From Halorhabdus salina (lineage in GTDB: Archaea; Halobacteriota; Halobacteria; Halobacteriales; Haloarculaceae), in NCBI RefSeq assembly GCF_013839425.1, contig NZ_JACDNP010000014.1, positions 1 to 57,211 on the forward strand: 57,211 nt of DNA, given 5' to 3'. Each line of letters begins with the position of its first letter. Within the stretch, counting starts at the first letter, position 1. The translations under genes and the position numbers were made by a program. Below the pieces are notes generated by a model. That model was not told the origin of the DNA, did no database searches, and worked only from the letters and a program-made list of their open reading frames with translations. Shown here one piece after another: positions 28,738-35,866 of this stretch.

Positions 28738-29352
28738 TTATTTCAGATACGGCAGTGACGCAGCCGTCGCCGAAATTTCGCCGCTGTTTGCGCTCATCAG
28801 CGCGGTCGTGTCCCAGATGCCCTCGACTAGGGCCTGTCGCTGTGCGTCGTCGACATCAACATCGACAGTCTGACCGCCGTAGGTGACCGTCTCGTTCTCG
28901 ACGTCGATGTCGATGTCGCCGTCGGGATTGGCCTCGACCCAGTCCTGCAGATCGGCGATGGTTTCGCTGTCGGCCGTCACCGTCGGCATCCCGAGTGCGA
29001 GGCAGTTACCCGCGAAAATCTCGGCGAAGGACTCGCCGATGAACGCGTCGATCCCCCAGCGCATCAGCGCCTGGGGTGCGTGTTCTCGCGAGGAGCCACA
29101 CCCGAAGTTGTCGTTGACAACCATCACGTTGGCCTCGTTGAACCGCTCCTCGTTCATCGGGTGGGCTTTCTGGTTGTCATCGTCGTCATAACGGACGTCG
29201 AAGAAGGCGAACTGCCCCAGGCCGTCGAAGGTGACGACCTTCATGAAGCGCGCGGGGATGATCTGGTCGGTGTCGATGTCGTTGCCCCGGATGGGCACAC
29301 CCGTCTCACTCACCGCACGGACTTCGGGAATGTCGGCGTCGAAGTCGCTCAT
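28738..29352 (-). CDS. leuD: 3-isopropylmalate dehydratase small subunit
   Basis: A 204-residue swivel-domain subunit: VPIRGNDIDTDQIIPARFMK at the N-terminus and NFGCGSSREHAPQALMRWGIDAFIGESFAEIF, the substrate-binding motif of aconitase-family small subunits. With LeuC it isomerises 2-isopropylmalate to 3-isopropylmalate. Its ATG overlaps the leuC stop (ATGA, 4 nt). It is the last gene of the ilvB-ilvN-ilvC-leuC-leuD run. No leuB follows: the next gene is the convergent HalX protein. Confidence 0.95.
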   Translation of the reverse strand: MSDFDADIPEVRAVSETGVPIRGNDIDTDQIIPARFMKVVTFDGLGQFAFFDVRYDDDDNQKAHPMNEERFNEANVMVVNDNFGCGSSREHAPQALMRWGIDAFIGESFAEIFAGNCLALGMPTVTADSETIADLQDWVEANPDGDIDIDVENETVTYGGQTVDVDVDDAQRQALVEGIWDTTALMSANSGEISATAASLPYLK

Positions 29353-30770
29353 ACAGGAGTCACCTCCGGCAGTTCGCGCACGTCAGTCACTTCCCCGGTG
29401 ATCGCCGCGGCGGCGACCATCTGGGGATTCATCAGCACCGTCCGCCCGTCTTTGCTCCCCTGTCGGCCGACGAAGTTCCGGTTCGACGAGGAGGCGGAGG
29501 CCTCGTCGCCCTCCAGTTGATCCTCGTTCATGCCCAGACACATCGAACAGCCGGCGTTGCGCCATTCGAAGCCGGCCTCGCGGAACACGTCCGCCAGGCC
29601 CTCTTCCTCTGCGGCCTCCTGGACGCGCTGGCTGCCGGGGACGACCATCGCGCGGACGCTGTCGTCGACGTCCCGGCCTTCGACGATCGCCGCGGCCCGA
29701 CGGAGGTCCGGCAAGCGAGCGTTCGTACACGACCCCAGGAAGACGACGTCGATATCGTAGCCCGCCATGGTCTCGCCAGGTTCGACGCGCATGTGCTCCT
29801 GGGCGCGGCGGGCGGTCTCCTGTTTGTCCTCGGGCAGGTCCTCGGGGTGGGGGATCGGCTCGGTGATGCCGATGCCCTGACCCGGGGTCGTGCCCCACGT
29901 AACGACTGGCTCGAGTTCGCTGGCGTCGATGTGGACCACGTCGTCGTACTCGGCGTCCTCATCTGAGCGGATCGACTCCCAGTAGGGCTTGAGCTCGTCG
30001 AACTTCTCAGGGTTCTCCTGGAAGTAATCAGTTTCCTTCATCCACTCGTAGGTGGTCTCGTCGGGGTTGACGTAGCCCGCGCGAGCGCCGCCCTCGATGG
30101 ACATGTTACAGATCGACATTCGCCCCTCCATGTCCAGGTTCTCGATGGCTTCGCCAGCGTACTCATAGACGTAGCCGACGCCGCCGTCAGTGCCCAGCCG
30201 GCGGATGATCTCTAAGATGATGTCCTTGGCCTCGACGCCAGCCCCGAGTTCGCCGTCGACCTGGATTTTCCGCACTTTCTGTTTCTCCATGGCGATGCAC
30301 TGGGTGGCCAGGACGTCCCGGATCTGGGAGGTACCGATGCCAAAGGCCAGCGCGCCGAAGGCACCGTGCGTGGAGGTGTGACTGTCGCCACAGACGATCG
30401 TCTTCCCGGGCTGGGTGATGCCCTGCTCCGGGCCGATAACGTGGACGATGCCCTGATCTCCCGTACTCGGATCGGAGAACTCGATGTTCGCCTCGCGGAC
30501 GTTCTGCTCGAGTTCGCTCATCATCTCCTCGGCCGCGTCGTCGCTGTAGGGCCGGGACTGATCGCTCGTCGGCACGATGTGATCGACCGTCGCGTGGGTC
30601 AGGTCCGGGCGGGCGACCTCGATATCGCGCTCCCGGAGCATGCCGAAGGCTTGTGGGCTGGTGACCTCGTGGATGAGGTGGAGCCCGACGAACAGTTGGT
30701 CCTGCCCGTTGGGGAGTTGCGTTACCTTGTGCTCGTCCCACACCTTGTCGTACAGCGTTCCCTGACTCAT
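29349..30770 (-). CDS. leuC: 3-isopropylmalate dehydratase large subunit
   Basis: A 473-residue aconitase-family subunit. [4Fe-4S] ligands are in VVFLGSCTNARLPDLRRAA and GCSMCLGMNEDQ. Other landmarks are HEVTSPQAFGMLRE, PTSDQSRPYSDD, CGDSHTSTHGAFGALAFGIG and SNRNFVGRQGSKDGRTVLMN. It catalyses the leucine-branch isomerisation with LeuD. It follows ilvC by 57 nt and is coupled to leuD by a 4-nt overlap. The length and motif set favour LeuC over aconitase. Confidence 0.95.
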   Translation of the reverse strand: MSQGTLYDKVWDEHKVTQLPNGQDQLFVGLHLIHEVTSPQAFGMLRERDIEVARPDLTHATVDHIVPTSDQSRPYSDDAAEEMMSELEQNVREANIEFSDPSTGDQGIVHVIGPEQGITQPGKTIVCGDSHTSTHGAFGALAFGIGTSQIRDVLATQCIAMEKQKVRKIQVDGELGAGVEAKDIILEIIRRLGTDGGVGYVYEYAGEAIENLDMEGRMSICNMSIEGGARAGYVNPDETTYEWMKETDYFQENPEKFDELKPYWESIRSDEDAEYDDVVHIDASELEPVVTWGTTPGQGIGITEPIPHPEDLPEDKQETARRAQEHMRVEPGETMAGYDIDVVFLGSCTNARLPDLRRAAAIVEGRDVDDSVRAMVVPGSQRVQEAAEEEGLADVFREAGFEWRNAGCSMCLGMNEDQLEGDEASASSSNRNFVGRQGSKDGRTVLMNPQMVAAAAITGEVTDVRELPEVTPV

Positions 30771-30827: not shown

Positions 30828-31838
<1,011 letters not shown>

Positions 31839-31910
31839 CGTTGTCGTCTCCATATCTGCGTTACGTGGGTGTCAATCTATCGTGTCGTCACGGGCAGGCG
31901 AGAATCGGCG

Positions 31911-32528
31911 TTACTCACCACTCGCGTACCCGTTTGCATCCATCGTTTCCGCGCCGCGTTCGAGGGCCGCCGCTCCCGTTCGGACGACTTCCTCGACATC
32001 GAACTGCTCGAAGGCCTCGATCGCGGCGTCTATCTTCTGTTTGCTTCCGGTGATCTCGACGGTCACGGCGTTGGGTGAGGCGTCGACAGCCTGGCCGTTG
32101 TACATCTCCGCGACCGACTGGACGTCGTCTGGCTTCTCGGCCCGCACTTTAACGAGGGCGAGTTCCCGTCGCATCGCCTCGGGTTGCAGTTCCTCGACGG
32201 CGATCGTCGGGATCAGCTTCCGGAGCTGTTTTTTCGCCTGCTCGACGCCCGGCTCGGGTTCCTCGATGACGATCGTCATCCGGGCGACGCCGTCGTCGGT
32301 CGTCGGGCCAACGGTGAGGCTCTCGATGTTGAACTGCCGGCGGCTAAAGAGCCCGGACACCTCCGCGAGGACGCCGGGCTCGTGTTTGACCAGCGCCGAC
32401 AGCACCGCATAGCGGGGCTGGTGGGTCGCTTCAGCTTCCGGATCGATACGAATACCTTGCTCGTTGCGCCGCCCCTCGGGTCGCATTCGCTCTTCGGGGG
32501 CCGGCCCTGGGAGTTCTCCACTACTCAT
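31911..32528 (-). CDS. ilvN: acetolactate synthase regulatory (small) subunit
   Basis: A 205-residue ACT-domain subunit. The ACT motif is YAVLSALVKHEPGVLAEVSGLFSRRQFNIESLTVGPT, the site where valine-type feedback inhibitors bind in this family. A second C-terminal domain (ALVKVRAEKPDDVQSVAEMY, TVEITGSKQKIDAAIEAF) follows. An N-terminal extension of about 38 residues, rich in Pro/Glu/Arg, precedes the ACT domain. Only 2 nt separate it from the ilvB stop, so the catalytic and regulatory subunits are made together. Confidence 0.93.
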   Translation of the reverse strand: MSSGELPGPAPEERMRPEGRRNEQGIRIDPEAEATHQPRYAVLSALVKHEPGVLAEVSGLFSRRQFNIESLTVGPTTDDGVARMTIVIEEPEPGVEQAKKQLRKLIPTIAVEELQPEAMRRELALVKVRAEKPDDVQSVAEMYNGQAVDASPNAVTVEITGSKQKIDAAIEAFEQFDVEEVVRTGAAALERGAETMDANGYASGE

Positions 32529-32530
32529 TG

Positions 32531-34306
32531 TTAGAGGGTGTCCAGTTGCTGCTCGTTCAGCGCGAACTGTCCGTTGTCGCCGCCGCTCGGAACCATCGGA
32601 TAGACGTTCTCGCCGGGGTCGATGATCGCATCGATGACCGCAGGCCCGTCGTACTCCCGGGCCTTCTTGATCACGTCATCGACCTCGTCGTGCTCTTCCA
32701 GTCGGAATCCACGCGCGCCAAAGGATTCCGCCAGCAGGTCGAACTCGGGGATCCACGGGTACTCGCTGGCCATCCGTCGGCCCTCGTAGAACCCGTCCTG
32801 CCACTGGCGGACCATCCCGATCGCCTCGTTGTTGAGGATGACGTACGTGATGTCCAGATCCTCCCGCACGGCGACGGATAGTTCCTGCATCGTCATCAGG
32901 AACGAACCGTCCCCATCGAAGGTAACGACTTCACGGTCGGGCGCTCCCAGCTTGGCCCCGATGGCCGAGGGAACACCGTAGCCCATCGTCCCCAGCCCAT
33001 TGCTGGAAACCCACGTGCGGGGTTCGGTGTACGTCCAGAACTGGCAGGCCCACATCTGATGTTGGCCGACACCCGTGGTGACGATCGCGTCGTCGTCGGC
33101 GTGCTCGGCGAAGCGTTCGACGACATATTGGGGCTTGAGCGGTTCGTCCTCGGGCGTCTCGTAGTCCAGCGGGTACTCCTCGGTCCACGTCTGACACTGT
33201 GCGCGCCACTCGTCGGCGTCGGGGGCCTCGGTCAGTTCGTCGTCCAACTGTTCGAGGACGCGCTCGGCGTCGCCCAGGAGCGGATAGTCGGCGTAGATGT
33301 TCTTGTTGATCTCGGCGGGGTCGATCTCGACGTGGATGACGTCGGCGTCCGGTGCGAAGCTGTCGACGCCGCCGGTCAGCCGGTCGTCGAAGCGCGTCCC
33401 GATACCCAGCAACACGTCGCAGTTGGTGATCGCCAAGTTGGCCGCGCCCGTGCCGTGCATCCCGGCCATGCCCAGCGAGAGGTCGTCGGTCTCGGGGAAA
33501 CCTCCCAACCCAGGCATGGTCGTGATCACTGGAATCTCGTACTCGCGGGCGAACGCGCGCAATTCGTCGTGTGCTTCGCCCTTGATGACGCCCCCACCCG
33601 AGAGAATAGCCGGTCGATCGGCTTCCTCGAGTGCTTCGGCAGCAGCCTCGATGACCGCCTCGTCGGCAGTCTCTGGCGGGTGGTAGGTATCCGGCGTCTC
33701 AGGGGAGACCGGCTGGACGTCGGTCTCGGCCTTGCTGGCGTCTTTGGGCAAGTCGACCAAAGTCGGCCCCTGTCGACCGGCATCGGCCAGCGCGAAGGCC
33801 TCGCTGACGTCCTCGCCCAGGGTGTCCGGATCGCCGGCGAAGTAGTTCTGCTTGGTGATCGGCTGGGTGATCCCGACAGTGTCGACTTCCTGGAAGGCGT
33901 CGTTGCCGACGAAATCCGTCGCGACCTGGCCGGTCAGGGCGATCATCGGATCGGAGTCCATCGAGGCGTCGGCGATCCCTGTCACGAGATTGGTCGCTCC
34001 CGGCCCCGAGGTCGCCATCGCGACGCCCGGATCGCCCGAGACGATGCCGTAGGCGTCGGCCGCGTGGGCCGCACCTTGCTCGTGGGCCATCGTGATGTGC
34101 TCGATGTCCGAGTCATAGAGTGCGTCGTAGACGGGCATGATCGCGCCGCCCTGGACGCCAAAGGCCATGTCGACGCCGGCCTCCTCCAAGGCGATGATCG
34201 CGGCTTCTGCGCCCGTCGTCACTTCACGAGCGTCGTCACTCCCGTCGTCGGCTTCGTCTCCCGGCGAGTCCGGTTCCGGATCCTGATGGAACGCGCGTTC
34301 GCTCAT
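32531..34306 (-). CDS. ilvB: acetolactate synthase catalytic (large) subunit
   Basis: A 591-residue ThDP-dependent enzyme committing pyruvate to branched-chain amino acids. It has FGVQGGAIMPVYDALYDS and HEQGAAHAADAYGIVSG (catalytic Glu), GPGATNLVTGIADASMDS, a central FAD/DHS domain, and the ThDP motif GDGSFLMTMQELSVAVREDL ending in VILNN. An acidic N-terminal extension of about 30 residues is haloarchaeal in style. The start is preceded by GGGAGG at suitable SD spacing and overlaps the stop of an upstream short ORF (ATGA). It heads ilvB-ilvN-ilvC-leuC-leuD. Confidence 0.95.
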   Translation of the reverse strand: MSERAFHQDPEPDSPGDEADDGSDDAREVTTGAEAAIIALEEAGVDMAFGVQGGAIMPVYDALYDSDIEHITMAHEQGAAHAADAYGIVSGDPGVAMATSGPGATNLVTGIADASMDSDPMIALTGQVATDFVGNDAFQEVDTVGITQPITKQNYFAGDPDTLGEDVSEAFALADAGRQGPTLVDLPKDASKAETDVQPVSPETPDTYHPPETADEAVIEAAAEALEEADRPAILSGGGVIKGEAHDELRAFAREYEIPVITTMPGLGGFPETDDLSLGMAGMHGTGAANLAITNCDVLLGIGTRFDDRLTGGVDSFAPDADVIHVEIDPAEINKNIYADYPLLGDAERVLEQLDDELTEAPDADEWRAQCQTWTEEYPLDYETPEDEPLKPQYVVERFAEHADDDAIVTTGVGQHQMWACQFWTYTEPRTWVSSNGLGTMGYGVPSAIGAKLGAPDREVVTFDGDGSFLMTMQELSVAVREDLDITYVILNNEAIGMVRQWQDGFYEGRRMASEYPWIPEFDLLAESFGARGFRLEEHDEVDDVIKKAREYDGPAVIDAIIDPGENVYPMVPSGGDNGQFALNEQQLDTL

Positions 34307-34386
34307 GGTCGATACCTCCCTGCGGTGGGTGCCGGTCCCGGACTGGATGCCCGCGGACGCAGCGTCGATGAGTGCTGGTGTGTCAT
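34303..34386 (-). other. second leader ORF, overlapping ilvB start
   Basis: A 27-codon ORF (MTHQHSSTLRPRASS..., Pro/Arg/Ser-rich) starts 68 nt beyond the first leader ORF. It ends in TGA that overlaps the ilvB ATG by 4 nt. Its last codons contain the GGGAGG that would be the ilvB Shine-Dalgarno. Ribosomes translating it would deliver directly to ilvB. Whether it is translated is unknown. Confidence 0.35.
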
Positions 34387-34441
34387 AGCTGGAGTCTTGT
34401 CGCTGGTGGTCACAACGCCGTACAATCGTCGTCGGAGATGT

Positions 34442-34475
34442 GGTACTGTTGGGGCTATAGGGCCCCTACAATACC
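34442..34475 (-). promoter_or_regulatory. RNA hairpin in ilv leader (candidate attenuator)
   Basis: On the minus-strand RNA, GGUAUUGUAGGGGC (34475-34462) pairs with GCCCCAACAGUACC (34455-34442) around the 6-nt loop CCUAUA. There are twelve Watson-Crick pairs, one U-G and one A-A mismatch. The left arm encodes the Gly-Ile-Val-Gly-Ala codons of the leader ORF, and the UAG stop straddles the loop and right arm, so translation and folding are mutually exclusive. No U-run follows, so a classic intrinsic terminator is not evident. Confidence 0.5.
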
Positions 34476-34541
34476 GACGAGAAGCAGGTCGGACGCGCCG
34501 CTGGCACTGGATCGAACCCCGGACGTGACCAGCGGGCGCAT
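34455..34541 (-). other. candidate branched-chain leader peptide (ilvL-like)
   Basis: A 28-codon ORF starts with ATG about 30 nt from a good TATA box, as expected for a leaderless mRNA. It begins MRPLVTSGVR and ends DLLLVGIVGAL. The last 11 residues hold four Leu, two Val and one Ile, the products of the operon it precedes. The codons there (CTT, ATT, GTA, CTA) are uncommon in neighbouring GC-rich genes. Stalling at these codons would leave the downstream hairpin free. This is the design of a leader-peptide attenuator, but it is inferred purely from sequence. Confidence 0.5.
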
Positions 34542-34566
34542 CGGTACCGGAACGTAGTCGTCGTTC

Positions 34567-34574
34567 ATTATAAA
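34567..34574 (-). promoter_or_regulatory. TATA element of ilvBNC-leuCD operon
   Basis: TTTATAAT on the minus strand, with a CGGAACG BRE-like element upstream, is centred 30 nt before the leader ORF ATG at 34541. The ilvB start is 235 nt further on, an unusually long leader for a haloarchaeal mRNA. Between 34575 and the leuA stop at 34661 nothing was recognised. Confidence 0.6.

Positions 34575-34660: not shown

Positions 34661-35866
<1,206 letters not shown>

Follow-up and report, generated by a model that had tools for sequence, protein, structure and literature searches.

Does the region preceding the branched-chain amino acid operon of the haloarchaeon Halorhabdus salina encode a ribosome-mediated attenuator? 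Leader-peptide attenuation belongs to the textbook mechanisms of bacteria, and the first-pass annotation of a 57,211-nt stretch of H. salina DNA (contig NZ_JACDNP010000014.1, hereafter the window) had proposed that the position of the ribosome on a short leader ORF controls the folding of a hairpin and thereby the expression of ilvB. The comparative evidence presented below suggests that a ribosome-mediated attenuator in an archaeon is the best explanation of this locus, with a probability that may be put at roughly three in four.

Organization of the ilvB leader region

All the features considered here lie on the minus strand. The first structural gene of the downstream operon is ilvB (32531..34306; Pfam TPP_enzyme_N/M/C), which encodes the large subunit of acetolactate synthase. 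It is followed by ilvN for the small subunit of the same enzyme (31911..32528; ACT_AHAS_ss, ALS_ss_C), ilvC for ketol-acid reductoisomerase (30828..31853; KARI_N/C), and leuC and leuD for the large and small subunits of isopropylmalate dehydratase (29349..30770, Aconitase, and 28738..29352, Aconitase_C, respectively). The Pfam assignments bear out the previously annotated order ilvB-ilvN-ilvC-leuC-leuD. The ATG of ilvB is at 34306, and the spacer between the leader stop codon and ilvB (34307..34454) is indeed 148 nt long; it contains an SD-like sequence, GGGAGG (34320-34315), and a stretch, CGGAGGTATCGACCATG, which is conserved within the genus. On the other side, 119 nt separate the leader ATG from the end of a leuA/homocitrate-synthase-like gene (HMGL-like; window positions 34661-35866), so that the leader promoter divides a cluster of branched-chain amino acid genes.

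The leader ORF (34455..34541) consists of 28 codons and a TAG, as described previously, and encodes the peptide MRPLVTSGVRSSASGASDLLLVGIVGAL; its assignment is supported by class-wide orthologues that are in frame with the hairpin. The ATG occupies 34541-34539 and the TAG 34457-34455. A TATA box, TTTATAAT (34574-34567), lies upstream at a distance from the ATG that is conserved among relatives. The box itself had been correctly located, the 30 nt formerly given for its distance to the ATG being only approximate: the gap between box and ATG is 25 nt, and 33 nt separate the first T of the box from the A of the start codon. A second in-frame ATG, at 34568, falls inside the TATA box and is absent from a relative (G002), and for these two reasons the start giving 28 codons is considered to be the right one.

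The same box-to-start distance of 33 nt was found in 84 of the 105 leaders with a scorable clear box, which is the spacing expected if the transcript begins at or next to the start codon. The mRNA of the leader ORF is predicted to be leaderless or nearly so, and to be translated. Moreover, a TATA box is present near the start of the upstream ORF (uORF) in 114 of 143 leaders and near the start of ilvB in a single one (1/143), so that transcription of ilvB most likely proceeds through the leader.

Towards its end, the leader ORF contains the putative regulatory codons ATT-GTA (Ile-Val; 34467..34472), assigned from the conservation of Ile and GTA in 143 distinct leaders and preceded in the window by CTG CTT CTC GTC GGT (Leu Leu Leu Val Gly). 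In the 15,951 codons of the window, GTA accounts for 5.7% of Val codons, CTT and CTA for 7.4% and 3.3% of Leu codons, and ATT for 15.2% of Ile codons; the earlier remark that CTT, ATT, GTA and CTA are uncommon here is thus accurate in the sense that all four are minority codons.

The ATT-GTA pair is part of a hairpin spanning 34442..34475, which was recovered in both MFE and centroid folds. Its arms, GGTATTGTAGGGGC and GCCCCAACAGTACC (34475-34442), form 12 Watson-Crick pairs and one G-U pair with one A.A mismatch, and hence the 13-bp hairpin of the first-pass annotation. The left arm corresponds to the leader codons GGT ATT GTA GGG GC, and the 34-mer occurs once in the window, with 0 occurrences expected. 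Across the class, what is conserved is a core shorter than the 13-pair stem, the outer stem being only partly kept. In the window this core comprises GGGGC (34466-34462), the loop CCTATA (34461-34456) and GCCCC (34455-34451). The T and A of the TAG close the loop and its G opens the right arm, in agreement with the earlier placement of the stop codon at the junction of loop and right arm. The hairpin is followed by a G-poor, C/U/A-rich tract of 17 nt, AACAGTACCACATCTCC (34434..34450).

Conservation upstream of ilvB in the class Halobacteria

A search with the leader peptide retrieved the leader in 7/7 genomes of the genus. Beyond the genus, the matches of this search had E values of about 0.2-1 and were mostly noise, the peptide being too short to score, and upstream regions anchored on ilvB were compared instead. 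The ilvB gene was located in 390 of the 391 sampled genomes of Halobacteria, and upstream DNA was taken from 162 loci in many genera, including Salinibaculum, Halospeciosus, Halobacterium, Halonotius and Halobaculum. A short ORF ending at a common motif was present in 155 of the 162 regions. Accordingly, homologous regions devoid of ORF or hairpin, which would have spoken against the proposal, are not what the comparison found: the ORF, its terminal Ile/Val codons and the hairpin, with a covarying stem, are features of haloarchaeal ilvB upstream regions throughout the class.

The typical leader ends with (I/V/L)-V-G-A/V-(x)-stop, and its codons AUY-GUA-GGG are almost invariant. Among 143 distinct leaders, the first of these positions is Ile (ATT/ATC) in 138, the second GTA in 142 and the third GGG in 142. 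A scan that ignored gene annotation found the pattern ATYGTAGGGGY-N(1-9)-RGCCCC in 257 of 391 haloarchaeal genomes, nearly always once per genome, and at the ilvB loci examined the match was the ilvB leader; in the same class-wide scan, the reversed control pattern gave almost no matches. Among ilvB regions from genomes lacking the strict pattern, 59 of 65 also carry a leader that has the same ORF end and departs from the motif by no more than 2 mismatches. The deepest of the sampled families (G027, G219, G286) and G127 gave no leader, and G016 and G222 only a diverged form of it. A particular case is locus L196 (G221), where an aberrant leader upstream of ilvB ends in GIIGIIGIIGAPQ, an Ile-Ile-Gly repeat, and lacks ATYGTAGGG.

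Apart from the end that overlaps the hairpin, the leaders are mostly free to vary in sequence, and their length ranges from about 15 to 45 codons. In ilvB leaders, Ile, Leu and Val together account for 48% of the nine C-terminal residues, as compared with 15% of the remainder. One further peculiarity is that the U before AUY, together with GUA (positions 34467-34473 in the window), is near-invariant in the 143 leaders, including those that have not kept the outer stem. This exceeds what simple pairing explains; one guess is that a sensitive tRNA reads a rare codon here.

Of 141 distinct ilvB leaders, 130 have a perfect 5-bp stem with the stop codon in the loop or the right arm; these stems were picked as perfect, so that the evidence lies in the shuffle-controlled scan described below rather than in pairing percentages. 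The stem covaries, changes in one arm being compensated in the other. In G306, the compensated stem GTACGGGC...GCCCGCAC is accompanied by a change of Gly to Arg in the peptide (GIVRA), and another compensated variant, GTAGGGCC...GGCCCTAC, is found in G184. Loop lengths often differ by 3 nt, which keeps the stop codon in frame.

The tract that follows the hairpin is likewise conserved in composition. In the 143 leaders, the first position past the right arm has 13% G, and each of the 16 that follow has 0-9%. Positions 12-16 are enriched in T and C, and G rises again past the tract, which as a whole is more C- than U-rich. Between hairpin and ilvB, a run of at least five T was found in only 4 of 143 leaders, which indicates that the element is no U-tract terminator of the standard archaeal kind. 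The absence of a U-run had been noted in the original description of the locus; a conserved G-free, C/U-rich tract occupies its place. The search for an antiterminator was negative: upstream leader sequence pairs with the left arm over shorter stretches than shuffled sequence does (longest pairing, mean 5.19 vs 5.80 nt), and consensus folds of three genera contain no conserved alternative or competing stem.

The motif is constrained as a reading frame

An open frame upstream of the motif is in itself uninformative, since the other two frames are also open in 118/143 and 143/143 leaders. Open frames being this common in GC-rich DNA, the position of the stop codon and the frame anchored by the TATA box were tested instead. 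A stop codon within three codons after GTAGGG is found in frame in 135 of 143 leaders and in the other two frames in 0/143 and 0/143. Of 94 leaders with a clear TATA box, 92 have a start codon 28-38 nt beyond it, and among these start codons, located from the TATA box alone, 86 of 92 are in frame with the motif (one third would be expected; P ~6e-34). These results indicate that the motif is constrained as a coding-type frame, beyond being a mere DNA or RNA motif.

Counterparts upstream of valS and argG

The genome of H. salina contains a second element, upstream of valS (L239/L307; G000:C20:307354-307372, minus strand), whose leader MRRYVPSAGRAAPPTEPAVDAHTVVVGAA ends with VVVGAA before the stop. 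The nucleotide sequence at this end reads GTA GTA GTA GGG GCG GCC TAG CCCC, followed by ACCTTTTCCTCACC. Identification of the downstream gene as valS comes from its N-terminal sequence, and PF00133 also retrieved it. When the genus was searched generically, valS leaders turned up in further species. In one relative (G001, L305), the Val run is reduced to EVGAA, and this leader may be decaying. In another (G003), a leader ending LLRRRRRGR, with five Arg codons, precedes argG.

Leaders of the latter kind, with Arg codons (for example …RRRRPGR before the stop) and a hairpin over the stop codon, were present upstream of argG in 28 of 30 genomes from 25 genera (L310, L342-L371). Runs of CGA are frequent in them, and their stems are diverse, including GGGGC/GCCCC, CGGGCC/GGCCCG, GGGGTC/GACCCC and GGCCC/GGGCC. 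Upstream of valS, leaders were found in 12 of 21 genomes with ValS of the window type and in 0 of 9 with a divergent ValS (~42-44% identical). In the genomes with divergent ValS (L333-L341), it is as if replacement of the gene had removed the control. One of 13 valS matches (MIQNKMYYNYLISFV) was rejected as due to chance.

The structural scan was identical for all genes, and amino acids play no part in it. Its background was low (1/486 for shuffled ilvB, 1/90 for shuffled valS and 1/90 for shuffled argG regions), and the combination of a hairpin over the stop codon with a G-poor tract was found in 0 of 45 upstream regions of ileS, leuS, trpS and tyrS, which served as controls. The hairpin-over-stop device, as predicted from these regions, is paired with cognate codons, namely Ile-Val for ilvBNC, Val for valS and Arg for argG. 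This match between codons and downstream gene is the decisive observation: it is expected of a ribosome whose position depends on codons, and not of a DNA operator or a riboswitch.

A model for attenuation without an antiterminator

As far as sensing is concerned, the original proposal that ribosome position on the leader controls the hairpin and ilvB gains support from conservation and covariation, and the sensing step, in which the ribosome would take its position on cognate codons, may be regarded as strongly supported. Translation of the leader, stalling of the leader ribosome and termination as the output are steps that we infer.

Transcription from the TATA box at 34574 would produce an mRNA starting at, or within a few nucleotides of, the leader ATG, and the first ribosome would load on the leader as it does on other leaderless haloarchaeal mRNAs. 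When Ile- or Val-tRNA (or Leu-tRNA) is poorly charged, this ribosome would stall on the Leu, Ile or Val codons before or inside the left arm. It would then occupy the left arm (AUU GUA GGG GC), the hairpin would not form, and the polymerase would proceed into ilvBNC-leuCD. With plentiful charged tRNA, the ribosome would reach the stop codon and depart, and the hairpin could fold across the stop behind the polymerase. Folding would probably end transcription: the hairpin and the G-free, pyrimidine-rich tract would halt it, be it by themselves or by exposing ribosome-free RNA to FttA/aCPSF1. An equivalent switch would operate with Val codons for valS and Arg codons for argG. A ribosome waiting at AUU, GUA or a CGA run would, given the size of the ribosome footprint, cover the arm with its leading edge. 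With cognate codons that adjoin or extend into the left arm, an antiterminator would be unnecessary.

Published data on Haloferax volcanii are relevant to the output step. In this species, 503 RNA 3′ ends were found to have a hairpin no more than 10 nt upstream, and a hairpin that was tested caused termination of 59% of transcripts; at intergenic 3′ ends there were T stretches with a TC dinucleotide (PMC7237163), which the T/C-rich end of the tract described here may loosely resemble. FttA carries out factor-dependent termination on nascent RNA, and it has been suggested that FttA and the ribosome exclude one another (PMC11616081). The fit is only partial, since FttA is reported to prefer U-rich RNA (PMC11616081) and the tract is richer in C.

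Alternative explanations

Alternatively, sensing may occur as proposed while the output is post-transcriptional, in that, once the ribosome has departed, the hairpin and tract cause the mRNA to be cleaved or degraded, or else give rise to a structure by which ilvB translation is reduced. The lack of a U-run after the hairpin would be consistent with this, as would the observation that FttA is itself a nuclease (PMC11616081). A possible point of translational control is the SD-like sequence before ilvB, which occurs in 74 of 143 leaders, about half, the window included. On the other hand, in consensus folds of three genera the core hairpin does not pair with the ilvB start in any conserved way, and the spacer from stop codon to ilvB ranges from about 80 to more than 300 nt among leaders, which disfavours a structure that would need to reach ilvB. 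Coupling by reinitiation is also unlikely with a gap of 148 nt, termination-reinitiation in H. volcanii being weak beyond 30-40 nt (PMC12548453). Altogether, we regard a post-transcriptional output as unlikely.

The high conservation of Ile-Val-Gly-Ala at the end of ilvB leaders, and the recurrence of VGA at the ends of valS leaders, may hint that the nascent peptide acts in the exit tunnel, in the manner of TnaC, in place of codons responding to tRNA supply. The argG leaders, however, end in runs of Arg and have no VGA. The third positions of GTA and GGG are fixed, so that conservation is also exerted at the level of nucleotides, and the one change of Gly to Arg coincides with a compensated stem. 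Finally, residues located farther upstream vary freely. Arrest by the peptide itself is accordingly quite improbable.

Still less is to be said for the view that the palindrome GTAGGGGC-GCCCC(TAC) is a DNA operator bound by a dimeric transcription regulator, the ORF being incidental. The element is a dyad located just downstream of a promoter, as such an operator might be, but the position of the stop codon and the frame anchored by the TATA box are constrained together with the ORF, and the stems differ and covary among argG, valS and ilvB leaders while the codons match the downstream gene. That the product of the uORF is a small protein working by itself is hardly credible, for although the end of the peptide is conserved, most of it varies in sequence and length and only the part overlapping the hairpin is kept.

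Relation to known systems

The preferred reading, attenuation by the leader ribosome, invites comparison with bacterial attenuators such as those of trp, his, leu, ilvGMEDA and enterobacterial ilvB, which combine a short leader ORF with a ribosome-dependent hairpin and in which a stalled ribosome usually permits an antiterminator to form. The haloarchaeal leaders share with them the short ORF before the operon, the cognate codons and the hairpin that a ribosome can block. The codon logic is also that of classical attenuators, whose leaders contain cognate codons for the products of the pathway (PMC1183508). In contrast to these, the promoter is archaeal and the leader ORF is apparently leaderless; the regulatory codons are part of the hairpin's own left arm or directly abut it, and the stop codon is inside the hairpin; no antiterminator was detected in the haloarchaeal leaders, and a G-free C/U tract replaces the U-run. 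The haloarchaeal leaders would thus work like ribosome-mediated attenuation minus two of its classical features, antiterminator and U-run.

Another parallel is offered by the tna operon of Escherichia coli, where the ribosome translating TnaC shields, at the stop codon, the loading site of Rho, and free Trp is sensed by means of an arrest peptide. Both systems would have a key ribosome at or next to the stop codon that shields RNA ahead of a C-rich, G-poor stretch. They differ in that archaea use FttA/aCPSF1 and not Rho, that a hairpin is present, and that the codons match the regulated pathway. The actinobacterial ilvB leaders with their LEU element (PMC1262725) and the uORF of Corynebacterium ilvBNC (PMC10272879, PMC11857589) likewise place a peptide rich in branched-chain amino acids before ilvBNC. 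The actinobacterial leaders belong to another domain of life, however, and differ in sequence and structure, with candidate terminators present; the LEU element is a pseudoknot that pairs with the downstream SD (PMC1262725).

In the open-licence papers searched, we found no precedent for leader-peptide attenuation in archaea, only bacterial work; an earlier description may exist elsewhere. Neither the ilvB leader region nor the loci with ilvB, valS and argG leaders (12 loci, E up to 1) had a relevant counterpart in Rfam release 15 (4227 models), and the window contained no match at the gathering score. A T-box riboswitch was rejected, as no T-box match was obtained among the Rfam models and the cognate codons sit in a constrained reading frame. 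An RNA motif named 'leuA-Halobacteria' was reportedly described in a 2017 survey and might represent a Leu member of this family. In H. volcanii, uORFs of 15-31 codons have been listed, two of them upstream of aminoacyl-tRNA synthetase genes (a trpS and pheS), and no mechanism was proposed (PMC4983044, Table 2). The absence of ilvB, argG and valS from that list speaks against the attenuator reading; the 5′UTR window of 150-250 nt used there (PMC4983044, Table 2) would miss many such leaders. Before the trpS genes sampled here, no hairpin over the stop codon was found, so that the H. volcanii trpS uORF (PMC4983044) is not counted as a member of this class.

It seems likely that archaea have evolved their own modular, antiterminator-free form of leader-peptide attenuation, employed across Halobacteria for several amino acids and probably acting through FttA-type or hairpin-assisted termination, and so through the coupling of transcription and translation. 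If this is true, regulated coupling between translation and gene output exists in archaea, and the leaders would account for the tuning of amino acid genes in haloarchaea. They would also provide tractable loci, in H. volcanii, for the study of transcription-translation coupling and factor-dependent termination in vivo. The anatomy of a hairpin over the stop codon constitutes a simple sequence rule by which more such leaders can be sought. Finally, two genomes (G074 and G273) each contain two copies of ilvB and the strict leader pattern once per genome, which suggests that the two copies may differ in their control.
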